The notes beneath the pieces were generated by a model. That model saw nothing but the letters and a program-made list of their open reading frames with translations. It did not search any database and was not told where the DNA came from. The position numbers and the translations under genes were made by a program. From contig NZ_QJJL01000002.1 in assembly GCF_003201935.1 (NCBI RefSeq), positions 744,001 to 808,000 of the forward strand: a stretch of DNA of 64,000 bases, written 5' to 3'. Shown piece after piece: positions 47,652 through 56,783 of the stretch (positions within the stretch are counted from its first letter, which is position 1; each line of letters opens with the position of its first letter). The DNA comes from Loktanella sp. PT4BL. GTDB lineage: Bacteria; Pseudomonadota; Alphaproteobacteria; Rhodobacterales; Rhodobacteraceae.

Positions 47652-48551
47652 TTAGTTACCTGCCTCATTTGTGCTTATTGTTGTATTTCCCCGGCGCAGC
47701 GCCTCTGCGGCTTCTTCGTTCATCCGGAGTGTGGGTCTTTTTGTATTGCGCATATCCACGACGGCGACATCGCGGCTCAACATATCCTGCGCGTCATTCA
47801 GCACGATCACCCGATCAAGGGCAGCAACGGGGTTCTCGCTGGGCAGAAGGATCCGCTGCTCGCGGTCCAGTACCATGTCCCAGCGCCGCTCGCCCATACG
47901 GACAAGGCCGCGCACGCGGTCAATCAAGGGGCCAGCTGCCGCAAAGAGGCGCAGCGCCTCGGCAATGTTGTCTTCGGCCCCGTCCCCTGCGATCAGGGGC
48001 AAATCAAGACGGTCGGCCCGTGCCATGATTTCGCCGGACTGCACGCCATCGGCATCAATCAAGCGCAGCACTGTGCCATCCCGCCAAAGCGCCACAGGCA
48101 CACGCGGGTTCAACTGCACATCCAGAGCACCGCCCTGCCCCACGCGGACCGAGGCGGACTTGATCGGGTCCAGTGCTTCGATATCTGCACGGATTTTTTC
48201 GAGGTCGAGATCAAAGGACGACACGGGGAATTCAGAAGGCAGCAGCGCGGCCACTTCTGTCAGCACTGCCAAATCGCCGCCCACGACATTCATGCTTTGC
48301 ACCATGAATTGCGGGCGTTCCTGAAAGCTCTGTTTTGTTTCTTCGATCGTCGCAGCAAGCGCTGCGCGGTTTTCGGGCTTGGAATACCAAGAGCCCGCAA
48401 TGATCAGGATCAACAGGATCGGCACCCCGATCCGCACGGTCCCGCGAAACCCCGGTGTCAGCATCATCCGCTGATAACGGTACCCCATCCGTGAGGGTGC
48501 GGGATCACGCGGCAGCGCATCGGGAGAGGTGCGGCGGATCAGCGATCGCAT
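47652..48551 (-). CDS. ftsQ: Cell division protein FtsQ
   Basis: 299 residues. A cytoplasmic N-terminus is followed by one transmembrane helix (about residues 45-62, IGVPILLILIIAGSWY), then a POTRA domain (QFMVQSMNVVGG, LLPSEFPVSSFDLDLEKIRADIEAL) and the FtsQ domain (SVRVGQGGALDVQLNPRVPVALWRDG). It recruits FtsB/FtsL and regulates septal synthesis. The ATG at 48551 is preceded by GGTGGAGG seven bases upstream and overlaps ddl by 13 bp; a GTG at 48578 is less likely. Confidence 0.94.
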   Translation of the reverse strand: MRSLIRRTSPDALPRDPAPSRMGYRYQRMMLTPGFRGTVRIGVPILLILIIAGSWYSKPENRAALAATIEETKQSFQERPQFMVQSMNVVGGDLAVLTEVAALLPSEFPVSSFDLDLEKIRADIEALDPIKSASVRVGQGGALDVQLNPRVPVALWRDGTVLRLIDADGVQSGEIMARADRLDLPLIAGDGAEDNIAEALRLFAAAGPLIDRVRGLVRMGERRWDMVLDREQRILLPSENPVAALDRVIVLNDAQDMLSRDVAVVDMRNTKRPTLRMNEEAAEALRRGNTTISTNEAGN

Positions 48552-49453
48552 GATGCGTCCTCCACCATCCAGCGGCACAGTTCAGGGAAGGAAATACCCA
48601 CATGGGCGGCCTGCTCTGGCGTGAGAGACGTGGGCGTCATCCCCGGCTGGGTGTTTGTTTCCAGCAGGATCAGCCCGTCAAGCCCGCGGCTCTCATCCCA
48701 GCGAAAATCGGTCCGGCTGACACCGCGGCAGCCCAAGGCCTGATGCGCACGCAGGGCGTATTCCATGCAGGCATCAAAAATCTCGGCCGGCACTTTGGCC
48801 GGCAATTCGTGCCGTGATCCGCCGGGCGCATATTTGGCGTGATAGTCATACCAGCCGTCGGTGATGATATCGGTGACCGTCAGCGCACGGTCGCCCATCA
48901 CTGTCGTGGTCAATTCACGGCCCGGCGCAAAGGCTTCGACCATGACCTTCTCTGGCATATCATCGGACAGTTGCGGCGGGCCGTTTGCGGCTTCATCCAC
49001 GATGTAGATGCCGACGCTCGACCCCTCGTTATAGGGCTTCACAACATAGGGCGGCGGCATGACATGGGCCGCGCGCACGGCATCGGCGGAGGCTAAGATA
49101 CTCTCAACGACCGGCAAACCTACCTTGCGGTATACGTCCTTCGTGCGCTGCTTATCCAATGTCAGTGCAGAGGCCAGAATACCCGAATGTGTGTATGGAA
49201 TTTTCAGCCATTCCAGAACGCCCTGTATCGCGCCGTCCTCGCCCCAGCGCCCATGGAGCGCATTAAAGACAACATCGGGTGCAATCTCGATCAAACGCGC
49301 AGCGACGTCGGGGCCGGCATCGACCTCGATCACGTCACATTCTGCTTCCCGCAAAGCTGCTGCACATTCACGGCCCGAGCTGAGCGACACTTCGCGTTCA
49401 GCCGATGGGCCACCCATCAGAACAACAACTCTCGGGTTTGTCCTGCTCGACAT
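48539..49453 (-). CDS. ddl: D-alanine--D-alanine ligase
   Basis: 304 residues, ATP-grasp enzyme making D-Ala-D-Ala for MurF. VVVLMGGPSAEREVSLSSG, VFNALHGRWGEDGAIQGVLE, YVVKPYNEGSSVGI, and a C-terminal LLETNTQPGMTPTSL with the Glu and Asn Mg ligands. Length matches the DdlB type. It overlaps the start of ftsQ by 13 bp. It follows murB with an 81 bp gap. Confidence 0.96.
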   Translation of the reverse strand: MSSRTNPRVVVLMGGPSAEREVSLSSGRECAAALREAECDVIEVDAGPDVAARLIEIAPDVVFNALHGRWGEDGAIQGVLEWLKIPYTHSGILASALTLDKQRTKDVYRKVGLPVVESILASADAVRAAHVMPPPYVVKPYNEGSSVGIYIVDEAANGPPQLSDDMPEKVMVEAFAPGRELTTTVMGDRALTVTDIITDGWYDYHAKYAPGGSRHELPAKVPAEIFDACMEYALRAHQALGCRGVSRTDFRWDESRGLDGLILLETNTQPGMTPTSLTPEQAAHVGISFPELCRWMVEDASCDR

Positions 49454-49534
49454 ACCCTACCGCCTTAAACGCAGGCCTTTTGCGACCTGTCATATTGATT
49501 TGATCCTTGCCTCGGATCACGGCCTTTTGGCCAA

Positions 49535-50473
49535 TTATTTTGCGGTGTCTGCGTCCAGACGATCACCGACCCGCATAATTTCCCATTCTAGCTTGATCCC
49601 TTGGGAATCGTAAACCTTTTTCCGCACCAACTCGCCTAAATCCTCAAGGTCAGCGGCGGTCGCATCACCTGCGTTCGTCAGAAAGTTGGAATGCTTTGTA
49701 TTCATCACTGCCCCGCCCAGCTGCGCGCCGCGCATGCCCGCGTTATCAATGACTTTCCAGGCCTTCAGATCATGTACGTCATCAGCCTGCCCTGTTGAGG
49801 AAAAACCGGCTGGATTGCGGAACGTAGACCCCGCTGTACGGTCCTTAGTCGGTTGGGTCTCGTCGCGTTTGGCCAGTTGCTCTGTCATCCGCAGATGCAG
49901 GTCCGCAGGCGCGGCTTTGGGCGGTGCAAGCGTGGCCGAGACGATCACTGCCCCCGCAGGCAGGTCGCTTTGGCGATAGGCAAGTTGCAGCGCATCAACC
50001 GACAGTTCGGTGATTGTCCCGTCACGCAGCACCAGGGTGACCGCGCGCAGCACATCCGCCATATAGCTGCCATAGCAACCGGCATTCATGCGCACCGCCC
50101 CGCCGATTGTGCCGGGGATCGTGCGCAGGAACGTCAGATCAAAACCGGCATCGGCAGCCTTGCGCGCCACATGCGCATCAAGCGCCGCCGCCCCTGCGAT
50201 AACTGCATCGTCACTGACCTCGATCCCGTTAAAGCCACGCCCCATGCGGATCACCACACCACTGATCCCGCCATCGCGGACGATCAGGTTGCTGCCGACG
50301 CCCATCGGGAGCACCGGAACCGCAGGATCAAGAGCCGCCAGAAAATCGGACAGATCCTGCATATCGGCAGGCTGAAACAGCACCTCGGCAGGGCCGCCCA
50401 CGCGCATCCACGTCAAATCGGCCAGCGGGCGATTGGCCGTCAATGTGCCCCGCACTTCAGGGAGTCTGATCAT
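49535..50473 (-). CDS. murB: UDP-N-acetylenolpyruvoylglucosamine reductase MurB
   Basis: 312 residues, FAD enzyme that reduces UDP-GlcNAc-enolpyruvate to UDP-MurNAc with NADPH. FAD-binding segments are [14 protein letters not shown] and [22 protein letters not shown], with LAYRQSDLP and [10 protein letters not shown] containing the catalytic Ser. This is the short type I/II family without the extra E. coli domain. The ATG at 50473 overlaps the end of the small membrane-protein gene by 17 bp, so murB is translated with that gene. Confidence 0.95.
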
Positions 50474-50756
50474 CCTCTGCTCTCTCTTGCTTTGCCCTTC
50501 CGACCAAGGCACCAACCACGCCGCCAAGCCCCGAAGGTGCGCTGATGCCCATCAGGAGTGCGACATAAAGCAGTCCGTCCCAACTTCCTAGTGCGGCCAT
50601 GCCAGAAAGCATGCCAACCGTGAAAAGTACCCAGACAATCCAGTAGATCTTGATGCCAGTGGTTAGGTGGCGCTTGGCCAACCAGTAGTTGCCAAAGCCT
50701 GTGGCAAGAAAGATGGAAAATGGGATCCCGTAAGCCATGAAATCACCAAAGGTCAT
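50457..50756 (-). CDS. Small membrane protein, paralogue of the next gene
   Basis: 99 residues with three hydrophobic segments: [33 protein letters not shown] and [18 protein letters not shown], then a Gly-zipper-like [14 protein letters not shown]. Its last 50 residues are clearly related to those of the 114-residue protein encoded just upstream (WDxLLYV, SAP, GG-hydrophobic-G-LVG). It overlaps that gene by ATGA and murB by 17 bp. No known family recognised. Its position suggests a link to wall growth, which is unproved. Confidence 0.7.
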
Positions 50757-51097
50757 GCCGATGATCCTTTTTCATCAACACCGCTGGCCAATACGGCAGG
50801 TGTTGCTTCTATTGGCTGAGCCTGATCCGCTCGGCTCCATCCAACAAGGCCGCCAATCAGTCCGCCCACTGCCGCCGGTGCACTGAAAAAGAGCAGCAGA
50901 AGAACGTAAAGAAGCGCATCCCATCCTCCGGTGATGCTTAGCTGATAAAACATGAGCACGGTAAATCCCGCCCAGAAGAAGGTCATCACGGCGAGTGCCA
51001 TCTTGCTTCTGCGCAAACCTGCCACAAGGGTCAGACCCAGCGGAATAAGAAAGCTGCCACACCCGATCCCGATCAATGCAATTTCTTCGCTACCCAT
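50753..51097 (-). CDS. Small membrane protein, paralogue of the 99-residue protein
   Basis: 114 residues with three hydrophobic segments (IALIGIGCGSFLIPLGLTLV, ALAVMTFFWAGFTVLMFY, WDALLYVLLLLFFSAPAAVGG) and a hydrophilic tail. It lies immediately behind a candidate promoter with two palindromic operators (51113-51155). AAGGG stands nine bases before the ATG. It is the first gene of a possible sub-operon running into the 99-residue gene and murB. Family not recognised; a duplication product by its similarity to the next gene. Confidence 0.7.
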   Translation of the reverse strand: MGSEEIALIGIGCGSFLIPLGLTLVAGLRRSKMALAVMTFFWAGFTVLMFYQLSITGGWDALLYVLLLLFFSAPAAVGGLIGGLVGWSRADQAQPIEATPAVLASGVDEKGSSA

Positions 51098-51112
51098 GAT
51101 TCTACCCTTACG

Positions 51113-51125
51113 TGAACAATGTTCA
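51113..51125. promoter_or_regulatory. Palindromic operator-like site, copy 1
   Basis: TGAACA-A-TGTTCA is a perfect 13-base palindrome. It overlaps the downstream side of a candidate -10 (TAAATA, 51132-51127 on the minus strand) 16-28 bp before the start of the 114-residue gene. Confidence 0.55.
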
Positions 51126-51126
51126 A

Positions 51127-51155
51127 TATTTACGCGAATGATGAACGATGTTCAA
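51127..51155 (-). promoter_or_regulatory. Candidate promoter inside the dcw cluster
   Basis: Minus strand TTGAAC (51155-51150) and TAAATA (51132-51127) with a 17-bp spacer. The -35 hexamer is part of the second palindrome (51142-51154), and the first palindrome lies just beyond the -10, so a repressor could block both. Only a motif match. Confidence 0.45.
51142..51154. promoter_or_regulatory. Palindromic operator-like site, copy 2
   Basis: TGAAC-GAT-GTTCA, the same palindrome as copy 1 with one base changed. The two centres are 29 bp apart, near three helical turns. Such short palindromes are typical of TetR-family or similar dimeric regulators. Confidence 0.55.
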
Positions 51156-51203
51156 TAGTTATTTTCAGCGCTTATGGAATTTAAGCGATAGTGCAGCCGC
51201 CCA

Positions 51204-51491
51204 TTATAGCAGACGGTCATCCCGACGACGCAGCAACCATCCCAGAAGTGCCCCGGCCAAAGCGCCCAGAAGCGCAGGCACACAGGCGAGCATCGCAACA
51301 GTCATGGCAAGTACAGGATCAACGCCAAAGGGACGGCCGCTCGCATAAATCGCGATGACCAGCACGGCACCGATGGCCGACGCAATACTGAGTGACAGGC
51401 CGGACCGCCCCGCCCGCATGAACCTTGTCAACGCGGCGAAAGGGATCATCGCGCAGAGCAGCATGCCAAGGAATATCCAAAGATCCGCCAT
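51204..51491 (-). CDS. Small membrane protein, unknown function
   Basis: 95 residues with three hydrophobic segments: LWIFLGMLLCAMIPFAAL, LSIASAIGAVLVIAIYA and VLAMTVAMLACVPALLGALAGALLGWLL. The Gly/Ala-rich last helix ends in a basic tail (RRRDDRLL), recalling the ends of the two paralogues that follow. The TAG stop of the DUF2484 gene directly precedes its ATG. It is a small-membrane-protein gene of the murC-murB interval. Confidence 0.65.
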   Translation of the reverse strand: MADLWIFLGMLLCAMIPFAALTRFMRAGRSGLSLSIASAIGAVLVIAIYASGRPFGVDPVLAMTVAMLACVPALLGALAGALLGWLLRRRDDRLL

Positions 51492-51743
51492 CTATGACCT
51501 CGCGATGTTGTTCTTGATCCAGCGCCACAGATAGTAGACCGGCCAGCGCAGAACGAGGCCGCCAACTGCCAAACCCAGCAACCCCATGAAAATCCCGTGC
51601 TGGATTGTAATCCAAACCAGAAGCGGCGCTCCGATTGCCAGCAGCACATAGGCCCGCCGCCAATGACTGTCGTTTGAAGGGAATGCCGACAAGGCAAAGG
51701 CCAGCACGACCCAAAGCCCGATCAGAATGACCGGGTCTTTCAC
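51492..51743 (-). CDS. DUF2484-like small membrane protein
   Basis: About 83 residues beginning [21 protein letters not shown] at a GTG that overlaps the murC stop (GTGA at 51740-51743). Hydrophobic segments: [34 protein letters not shown] and [23 protein letters not shown]. It matches my memory of DUF2484, which sits beside murC and murB in Rhodobacterales. A longer frame from a TTG at 51776 was rejected. Function is unknown. Confidence 0.7.
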
Positions 51744-53137
51744 GCGTTCAGGCGGGCCGGCAATGCGTTCGCCCAAGTGCTGATCGTCCCTGCCCCGAGG
51801 CAGACGACCATATCACCCGGACCGGCCTGTTCGCGGACAAGTCGTTCCAGATCGTCTTCGCTTTCCACCACGCGCGCGTGACGGTGACCATGGCGGATCA
51901 GACCGGCGACAAGATCACGGTGGCTCGCACCTTCAATCGGGGCTTCGCCTGCCGAAAAGACCTCGGCGATCCCCACCACATCTGCGTCGTTGAAGCAGGC
52001 ACAGAACTCATCAAAGTGATGCGACAGGCGGGTAAAACGGTGGGGTTGGTGCACAGCAATCACGCGCCCGTCGGTTGCCTGACGCGCCGCTTTCAAAACG
52101 GCGGCGATTTCAACAGGGTGGTGGCCGTAGTCATCAACGATTGTGACGCCGTTCACTTCGCCAACTTTGGTAAAGCGGCGGTTCACGCCCTTGAAACCTT
52201 TCAGCGCCGCGCGAATTTCCTCTTTCTTCATGCCAAGGTGACGGGCGACTGCGACAGCCGACAACGCGTTCGACACATTATGGTCCCCCGGCATCGGCAG
52301 TTCGCAATCCTCAATCAGCGCGCCTTCGGCCTGAAGCGCGATATCAAAATGCGCGACACCTGCTGCATAAGTGAGGTTGATGGCGCGGATATCGGCCTGG
52401 GCATTGAAGCCATAGGTGACCACACGGCGGTCGGTAATTTTGCCCACCAAAGACTGCACATCAGAATCGTCCGTGCAACAGACAGCGAGCCCGTAGAACG
52501 GTATATTCGACACGAAGTCGTAGAAGCCCTTGTGCAACGCCTCTTCCGTTCCCCAATGCTCCATATGTTCAGGATCGATATTGGTCACAATCGCGATGGT
52601 CGCGGGCAAACGGTTGAATGTCCCGTCGCTCTCATCAGCCTCAACCACCATCCACTCGCCCTGCCCCATACGTGCATTCGAGCCATAGGCATGGATAATG
52701 CCGCCATTGATGACTGTCGGATCAATCCCGCCTTCATCCAAAAGTGCCGCAACCATCGTGGTCGTCGTCGTTTTTCCGTGGGTTCCAGCAACCGCGACGT
52801 TGGATTTCAGGCGCATCAATTCGGCAAGCATTTCCGCGCGGCGCACAACAGGCAGCCCTTTGGCGCGGGCCGCATCCAGTTCAGGATTACCCGGTTTGAT
52901 GGCAGAGGAAATGACAACCACCTCCGCGCCTTCAAGATTATCCGCACGCTGACCTTCAAAGATGATCGCACCCAGTGACTTCAGGCGGTCCGTAATCTTC
53001 GATGCCTTCAGATCAGACCCCTGAACCGTATAGCCGTGGTTCAGCAAGACCTCGGCAATGCCGGACATCCCGATCCCGCCAATGCCCACAAAATGGATCG
53101 GGCCCACATCAAGTGGCAGTTTGGTTGCAGCGCTCAT
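51740..53137 (-). CDS. murC: UDP-N-acetylmuramate--L-alanine ligase MurC
   Basis: 465 residues. It starts [32 protein letters not shown]. The ATP loop is [16 protein letters not shown]; later come [30 protein letters not shown] and HQPHRFTRL. It adds L-Ala to UDP-MurNAc, the first amino acid of the stem. A second possible start at 53155 (MDGNPVM) overlaps the murG stop as TAATG; I chose 53137 because it fits the family start, but coupling would favour 53155. GTGA links it to the next gene. Confidence 0.94.
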
Positions 53138-55418: not shown

Positions 55419-55604
55419 GGATCACCGCTCACTTGCCTATATCGCCCGTTTGCCGGGTCTGCTGGTACCTTAACCGTCAATTGACCACGATTCCACTGAA
55501 AAACCGCCCCCTGCCACTTTCCATGTCCGATCAAACTTTCGCCGGAGGCATGATCAAATTTTCTGAATTTGATCTCCCGCGGCGCTTGCGCCATATGGGC
55601 CGCT

Positions 55605-56783
55605 ATGAAGGTAGAAACTCTGATCATCGGCGCAGGTGCCGCAGGCATGATGTGCGCGGCCCACGCAGGGCCCGGCGTGCTCGTTGTCGATCATGCCAAA
55701 GCGGCCGGTGAAAAGATCCGGATCTCGGGCGGCGGACGGTGCAATTTCACAAACCTCTACGCCAGCCCGCAGAACTTCATCAGTCAGAACAGACACTTCT
55801 GCAAATCTGCCCTCGGGCGCTATACGCAGTGGGATTTCATTGCGCTGGTCGATCAGTACCGGATCGCATGGCATGAAAAAACGCTTGGGCAGCTTTTCTG
55901 CGACAACAGTGCCAAAGACATTATCGCAATGCTGCGCGCCGAAATGGACAAGGCGGGTGCGCAGCTTTGGCTGCAAACCGCTGTGAGCGAGATCAGCCAC
56001 GACGGCAGTGGCTTTCGCGCGACCCTGACCCGTGAGGGAAGCGATCAAACGGTAACCGCACGCAATCTGGTCGTGGCGTGTGGCGGCAAATCCATCCCGA
56101 AAATGGGTGCGACGGGGCTGGGCTACCAGATCGCGACACAGTTCGGCCTGCCCGTGATCGACCCGCGTCCGGGGCTGGTGCCGCTGACCTTCTCGGATGA
56201 AAGATTTAAACCGCTTGCAGGTGTCGCAACCCATGCGCGCGTATCGGCCAATGACGCCAGCTTTGACGAAGCGATCCTCTTCACCCACCGCGGCCTTTCT
56301 GGGCCTGCGGTATTGCAAGCCTCATCATATTGGCACGAGGGCGAGACGATCAGCGTGAACCTGATCCCCAAAGGCGATCTTCTGGCAGGTCTGCAAAGCC
56401 ATCGCCAAAGCGACGGGCGCAAAGCGCTGACCACTGTACTGGCGCAACACCTGCCTGCCCGACTTGTGGATCACCTCAAGGCAGAGTTGCCGCTTGAAGG
56501 AAATATCGCCGATCAAAGTGATGCAAAGCTGACGGCACTTTGCGAGAGACTGGCCGACTGGACCCTGACGCCTGCCGGATCAGAGGGCTACCGCACGGCA
56601 GAAGTGACCTTGGGCGGCGTTGATACCGGCGCGCTGTCTTCCAAAACCATGGCCGCAAAATCAGTGCCGGGACTTTATTTTATAGGTGAATGCGTGGATG
56701 TCACCGGCTGGCTGGGCGGCTATAATTTCCAGTGGGCATGGTCCTCGGGGTGGGCGGCAGGGCAAGCCATTGCCAACCAGTAA
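55605..56783 (+). CDS. BaiN/HI0933-family NAD(P)/FAD-dependent oxidoreductase
   Basis: 392 residues. FAD-binding start KVETLIIGAGAAGMMCAAHAG, then EKIRISGGGRCNFTN; LVVACGGKSIPKMGATGLGYQIA holds the second nucleotide-binding segment; the end GLYFIGECVDVTGWLGGYNFQWAWSSGW is the family signature (TIGR00275 type). Members act in bile-acid reduction in gut bacteria, and the usual bacterial role is unknown. The ATG at 55605 was chosen over an upstream frame for the Rossmann start. It is inserted on the opposite strand between murD and ftsW. Confidence 0.9.
   Translation: MKVETLIIGAGAAGMMCAAHAGPGVLVVDHAKAAGEKIRISGGGRCNFTNLYASPQNFISQNRHFCKSALGRYTQWDFIALVDQYRIAWHEKTLGQLFCDNSAKDIIAMLRAEMDKAGAQLWLQTAVSEISHDGSGFRATLTREGSDQTVTARNLVVACGGKSIPKMGATGLGYQIATQFGLPVIDPRPGLVPLTFSDERFKPLAGVATHARVSANDASFDEAILFTHRGLSGPAVLQASSYWHEGETISVNLIPKGDLLAGLQSHRQSDGRKALTTVLAQHLPARLVDHLKAELPLEGNIADQSDAKLTALCERLADWTLTPAGSEGYRTAEVTLGGVDTGALSSKTMAAKSVPGLYFIGECVDVTGWLGGYNFQWAWSSGWAAGQAIANQ

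Follow-up and report, generated by a model that had tools for sequence, protein, structure and literature searches.

Introduction

PSP envelope-stress responses are known as PspF/PspABC in E. coli, LiaRS–LiaH in Bacillus, and ClgR–PspA in Mycobacterium. The system described here resembles them in that a regulator adjoining a pspA-type gene appears to control this gene together with a few membrane proteins, remote genes included. It differs in the regulator itself, which is of the TetR type; the E. coli regulator, PspF, is an enhancer-binding activator. With TetR repressors of the AcrR, FadR, KstR, and FasR types, the regulator shares the combination of TetR_N and TetR_C_33, a site in its own promoter, and putative operators placed over promoter elements. 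In contrast to these repressors, its predicted regulon consists of membrane and envelope genes around pspA.

For comparison, we drew on parts of PMC11237479, PMC5089854, and PMC9239133. According to passages of the comparative PSP literature, pspA tends to have neighbors that encode DNA-binding proteins or regulators of other kinds, with three phyla given as examples, and E. coli pspG is an orphan psp gene, which parallels the remote targets found here. The term “TetR” is absent from the main text of two comparative PSP papers, as is murB from the main text of a paper on the R. sphaeroides dcw cluster. A literature search that covered few subscription papers returned no TetR-controlled PspA regulon. 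PMC5424462 was rejected as a report on TetR and PspA, because “pspa” in its retrieved passages stands for pSpark vector names.

Results

A palindrome pair lies at a predicted promoter of the dcw cluster

The window, the whole stretch of 64,000 nucleotides of Loktanella sp. PT4BL that was analyzed, contains in its dcw cluster two palindromes, here labeled as putative operators O1 and O2. An earlier note on this DNA had described them as near-identical, 29 bp apart, and placed over a −35-like TTGAAC and just past a −10-like TAAATA. Both palindromes are present with a start-to-start spacing of 29 bp, and the promoter elements lie where the earlier note had placed them (Table 1). On the minus strand, the order before the small membrane protein gene M114 is TTGAACATCGTTCA-TCATTCGCG-TAAATA-T-TGAACATTGTTCA, followed by a Shine-Dalgarno-like GTAAGGG and the ATG. 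The predicted promoter TTGAAC-17-TAAATA precedes two small membrane genes and murB.

Table 1. Positions of the putative operators, promoter elements, surrounding genes, and candidate regulator gene
Feature	Position	Strand	Sequence	Remark
Operator O1 (putative)	51142..51154		TGAACGATGTTCA (minus strand, TGAACATCGTTCA)	Overlaps −35
Operator O2 (putative)	51113..51125		TGAACAATGTTCA	Starts 1 bp past −10, over the expected start site
−35 element	51150..51155	minus	TTGAAC	
−10 element	51127..51132	minus	TAAATA	17-bp spacer to −35
M114, 114-aa small membrane protein gene	50753..51097	minus		Predicted direct target of the promoter
99-aa M114 paralogue	50457..50756	minus		37% over 71 aa
murB	49535..50473	minus		First cell-wall gene downstream; cluster context
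ddl	48539..49453	minus		Next downstream after murB; context
M95, 95-aa small membrane gene	51204..51491	minus		Immediately upstream of the promoter
DUF2484 small membrane gene	51492..51776	minus		Between murC and M95; PF10658, 66.5 bits (cut-off 25)
tetR, pspA-linked	G000:C3:442777-443373	minus		Directly upstream of the pspA-type gene

When up to two mismatches were allowed, a 12-base consensus occurred twice in the 64-kb window at an expectation of 2.12. As this count is not above chance, the consensus was rejected as a signal, and exact half-sites were used instead. In 300 windows simulated with a first-order Markov model, TGAACNNNGTTCA never appeared twice, and any 5-3-5 palindrome with the same arms repeated 13–60 bp apart was contained in 2 of them. 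The promoter scan gave TTGAAC-16-TAGAAT (51126-51099) as its own match; it did not report the TAAATA promoter, because its scoring accepts only −10 elements with a final T. TTGAAC-16-TAGAAT is an alternative promoter, from which the transcript would start inside the M114 gene.

M114 itself reaches the cut-off of no Pfam or NCBIfam model. Since 22 of its relatives showed scattered weak Pfam matches only (best E 0.0035), we left M114 without a family name. The gene of its 99-aa paralogue shares 4 bp with M114 and 17 bp with murB. No terminator-like site was found in a scan of 49300-51900, which fits read-through from the promoter, although it is no proof of it. The murB start codon in the window was picked by hand, and the genes that we take to be murB and ddl are named from their context. 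The small membrane genes in 50457-51097 are tandem paralogues; many genus relatives have one copy between the operators and murB. Elsewhere in the dcw cluster, a 404-aa flavoprotein-like open reading frame (55569-56783, plus strand), presumably HI0933-like, runs in the opposite orientation.

The same sites recur at tetR and pspA

In the 3.92-Mb genome, exact TGAAC-N3-GTTCA occurs eight times, compared with two occurrences of the reversed control pattern. Seven of the eight sites fall in four promoters, namely those of the dcw genes, of tetR, of pspA with a YiaAB-like gene, and of a small lipoprotein-like gene with a DUF2145 gene. A single site is located 15 bp upstream of the tetR start, two sites 58 bp apart precede the PspA/IM30-family gene, and two sites 53 bp apart precede the small Ala-rich gene, called lipoprotein-like by eye, and the DUF2145 gene (PF09916, 162.7 bits). 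The eighth site stands alone, 42 bp before the gene of a 400-aa membrane protein (L018:1991-3248; G000:C3:176590), where its TTGAAC can act as a −35 element 17 bp from TATCCC. The target promoters read TTGAAC, TTGCAA, or TTGACG plus −10-like boxes. As a check, the earlier note had named a search for further copies of the palindrome next to TetR-family genes. Copies were indeed found at one tetR and the neighboring pspA; among 11 TetR_N genes, only the pspA-linked one adjoins exact sites. One-mismatch sites at C3:313859, C4:17767, and C7:32935 were left out because of an altered half-site; the C3:313859 region, the one of the three that was inspected, contains no exact site.

The regulator matches TetR_N (PF00440) with 24.5 bits, barely over the cut-off of 24, and TetR_C_33 (PF13305) with 28.5 bits (cut-off 26.8), whereas no NCBIfam TetR model attains its cut-off. 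The adjoining pspA-type protein matches PF04012 (PspA/IM30) with 72.3 bits (cut-off 33.9) and fails the PspA equivalog model TIGR02977 (22.8 bits; cut-off 242.95). We therefore regard it as a PspA/IM30 relative and not as an equivalog, and the system as PSP-like and not as a classical PSP response. The YiaAB-like gene owes its name to a match to PF05360 that lies below cut-off (23.2 bits against 26.6).

An AlphaFold2 model of the regulator, calculated from 29 relatives, has a mean pLDDT of 91.3. Its closest solved structure is PDB 3cjd from Jannaschia sp. CCS1, which belongs to the same protein family and is titled a putative TetR regulator. The two share 52% identity across 186 columns, with a TM-score of 0.95 (by target length) and a profile E of 7.1e-83. 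A literature search on 3CJD with TetR found nothing. The structure matches that follow 3cjd are general TetR folds, including FasR and KstR, whose structures contain acyl- or steroid-CoA compounds. This likeness, together with phospholipid genes adjacent to the regulator gene, is the only hint, and a weak one, that the ligand of the regulator may be lipophilic.

The tetR–pspA locus keeps its sites in relatives

We examined the best 80 of 86 tetR relatives in named records, with identities from 99% to 48%. By label, nearly all of the 80 loci belong to Rhodobacterales genera, uncultured Rhodobacteraceae, or Alphaproteobacteria, with many bins and one Mucilaginibacter among them. In this set (best 80 of 86), an exact site lies in the 60 bp before tetR in 74 loci and is missing from 6; at least two sites follow tetR in 74 and at least three in 22. 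A pspA match, partial in some cases, is present in 76 of these best 80 loci, 73 of which have at least two sites. Loci without a pspA match have zero or one site (L071, L082, and L090) or three (L098). Downstream of pspA lies the YiaAB-like gene, to which many loci add an acyltransferase (PF01553) and a cytidylyltransferase (PF01148).

At the family level, tetR is matched at E 1e-20 in 67 of 295 genomes, although some of these matches are weak and perhaps non-orthologous. Of 69 matches, we opened the 30 loci with the best E-values, among them those of the present genome and of one congener, and found a site at most 65 bp before tetR in all 30, down to 51% identity. After tetR, there are two or three sites in each of the 23 opened loci with a pspA match and none or one in the seven without. 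In one genome (G137, L303), tetR and pspA are divergent, with three sites between both matches.

Within the genus, the pair beside murB co-occurs with tetR

The genus set comprised 56 genomes; murB was found in all of them, and its upstream region was read in 55. An exact pair with 8–38 bp between the sites is present in 29 of the 56 genomes, whereas the reversed control pair is present in 0 of 56 and in 0 of 37 other genomes. The earlier note had tied its reading to conservation of both palindromes in relatives. Beside murB, the pair (at most one mismatch per site, 25–32 bp apart) is conserved in 27 of 55 genomes, in 24 of them exactly, and all 27 possess tetR. This corresponds to 27 of 43 genomes with tetR, including one with a partial tetR match and no pair (G168), versus 0 of the 12 genomes without tetR that were read (Fisher p 1.1e-4, kinship ignored). 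One further genome without tetR, the region upstream of murB of which was unread (G178), has zero exact sites genome-wide. A single site beside murB was found in G155, which has tetR, and in G159, which has no tetR match at E 1e-20 and in which the lone exact site (L205) is possibly a relic. Not all genomes with tetR share the dcw branch, as 15 of the 43 have neither pair nor site upstream of murB.

The mean number of exact sites per genome is 7.5 in the 43 genus genomes with tetR (control 1.5) and 1.8 in the 13 without (control 1.8), counts that are not independent because the genomes are related. The congener G156, which lacks tetR, has 7 exact sites (control 6). In the family set, each of the 67 genomes with a tetR match has at least three sites; since genomes without a tetR match reach 10, a lone motif is indicative at most in the family.

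The promoter elements are conserved along with the sites. The 15 genomes with a spacing of 29 have a 17-bp spacer, an intact TTGAAC in 14 cases and TTGAAT in one, and an invariant −10 TAnnnA. All 23 genomes with a spacing of 29 or 30 share the 5′ T of the −35 element, and the position-2 A of the −10 element is also found in the eight with a spacing of 30. Sites and promoter elements are kept, whereas the rest of the sequence between the sites is mostly variable. The presumably regulated gene begins ∼16 bp past O2.

In 17 of the 27 genomes with the pair, the open reading frame after the operators ends at the start of the murB match or at most 52 bp past it. For the 28 pair-less genomes read, M95 ends at most 83 bp from murB in 16, and another small open reading frame ends at most 84 bp from murB in 10 in which M95 was undetected; the two genomes with a single site show larger gaps before murB. 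One of those 10 (G185) gave a weak M114 match in a search to E 0.01. M114 is matched in 27 of the 56 genus genomes, 25 of which have the pair. The matches in G155 and G169 were rejected, as they are weak and located on the M95 gene; G172 and G189 have the pair before a more divergent small membrane open reading frame. From this distribution of the pair, M114, and M95, the operators, the promoter, and the M114 gene seem to have been gained or lost together. Alignment A1 of the small membrane proteins covered 18 of the 26 other pair-bearing genomes, two window proteins, and two proteins from genomes labeled Tateyamaria, the start codons of which were picked by hand; it left out G158, G157, G171 (wrong frame), G152 (late start), and the near copies G182, G196, G197, and G199.

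M114 and other predicted targets in further genomes

A search of 150 family genomes for M114 gave three with a match, own genome counted. At L106, the M114 match is located upstream of murB with no exact sites. At L254 and L255, from the genomes labeled Tateyamaria, M114 relatives have the same pair at spacings of 29 and 28, next to a gene that we take to be HIT-type, and a murB or murC match is absent from the 4 kb read around them. That these pairs are located away from murB suggests that the operators serve the M114 gene itself; the position of M114 beside murB may be particular to some lineages.

Pairs also precede relatives of the 400-aa protein, recognized by eye, in seven further genomes (L222, L256, L257, and L259–L262). 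The gene has a lone site in the present genome, and its apparent relatives in Octadecabacter-type and other genomes have a pair. Small lipoprotein-like or secreted proteins are preceded by pairs at L219–L221, L223, and L253; a Pfam scan of three of them gave no family over cut-off. Two pairs fit the envelope picture poorly, being located before a 663-aa open frame (L224) and before no clear gene (L258). Three genomes (G103, G137, and G352) have 64, 69, and 66 exact sites, compared with one each in the control; these counts far exceed those of all other genomes of the family search. In G103, the sites have varied cores, and all 11 that were fetched sit within long open frames, unlike this regulon.

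Discussion

The palindromes are very probably operators of the pspA-linked TetR repressor and part of a PspA membrane-stress regulon, a cassette of which is located beside murB. The repressor-controlled promoter proposed in the earlier note gains support from the sites at tetR and pspA and from the conserved pair beside murB in genomes with tetR, and comparative genomics lends strong support to a repressor of the TetR type.

We infer binding, repression, the signal, and the effect on murB and beyond as follows. TetR dimers would bind TGAAC-N3-GTTCA, and the repressor would cover the −35 element from O1 and the start region from O2, thereby shutting the M114 promoter. The same TetR would repress its own gene, pspA with the YiaAB-like gene, the lipoprotein-like gene with the DUF2145 gene, and the gene of the 400-aa protein. 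A membrane-stress signal, perhaps a lipophilic ligand, would release TetR, upon which M114 and its paralogue would be made alongside the PspA-type, YiaAB-like, lipoprotein-like, and 400-aa proteins. Through read-through and gene overlap, murB and later genes could be induced as well: given the lack of a terminator-like site and the overlaps among M114, the paralogue, and murB, murB should also rise, and ddl and the fts genes may do so.

The position of the operators within a same-strand run of overlapping genes, without a terminator-like site in 49300-51900, would also suit a bound TetR that mostly roadblocks read-through from murG–murC and tunes murB–ftsZ, with the promoter being secondary. 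We consider such a roadblock unlikely, because −35 and −10 elements are conserved over and between the operators, and because M114 relatives in two genomes keep the pair away from murB, so that what is kept seems to be the gene and not its place. It is very unlikely that another regulator with the same motif binds the dcw sites, or that TetR acts as an activator. As another regulator would predict, as many as 10 exact sites occur in genomes in which tetR is unmatched at E 1e-20, but genus genomes without tetR average the control level, and none of the 12 that were read has the dcw pair; sites that cover the −35 element and the expected start are in the position of a repressor.

It is barely credible that the palindromes arose by chance or form an RNA hairpin in the leader of M114. 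Although the two-mismatch consensus is expected about twice per window, the pair is kept in register across species, and the reversed control pair was absent from both genome sets. O1 overlaps the −35 element and is therefore probably outside the transcript, which argues against a leader hairpin.

On the repressor reading, control by membrane stress seems to extend to the synthesis of the cell wall. More tentatively, a TetR instead of PspF may run the PspA response in part of the Rhodobacteraceae, many dcw clusters of the Yoonia/Loktanella type may hold a regulon cassette (two operators, the promoter, and a small membrane gene), and membrane damage might directly raise murB and perhaps ddl–ftsQ–ftsA. 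If true, this would provide a function for an orphan family of TetR proteins that includes a solved structure (3cjd), a new mode of controlling a PspA-type protein, and a regulon of uncharacterized membrane proteins (M114, the YiaAB-like, lipoprotein-like, and DUF2145 proteins, and the 400-aa protein). It would also connect membrane stress, in a testable way, with the genes of peptidoglycan-precursor synthesis and division.
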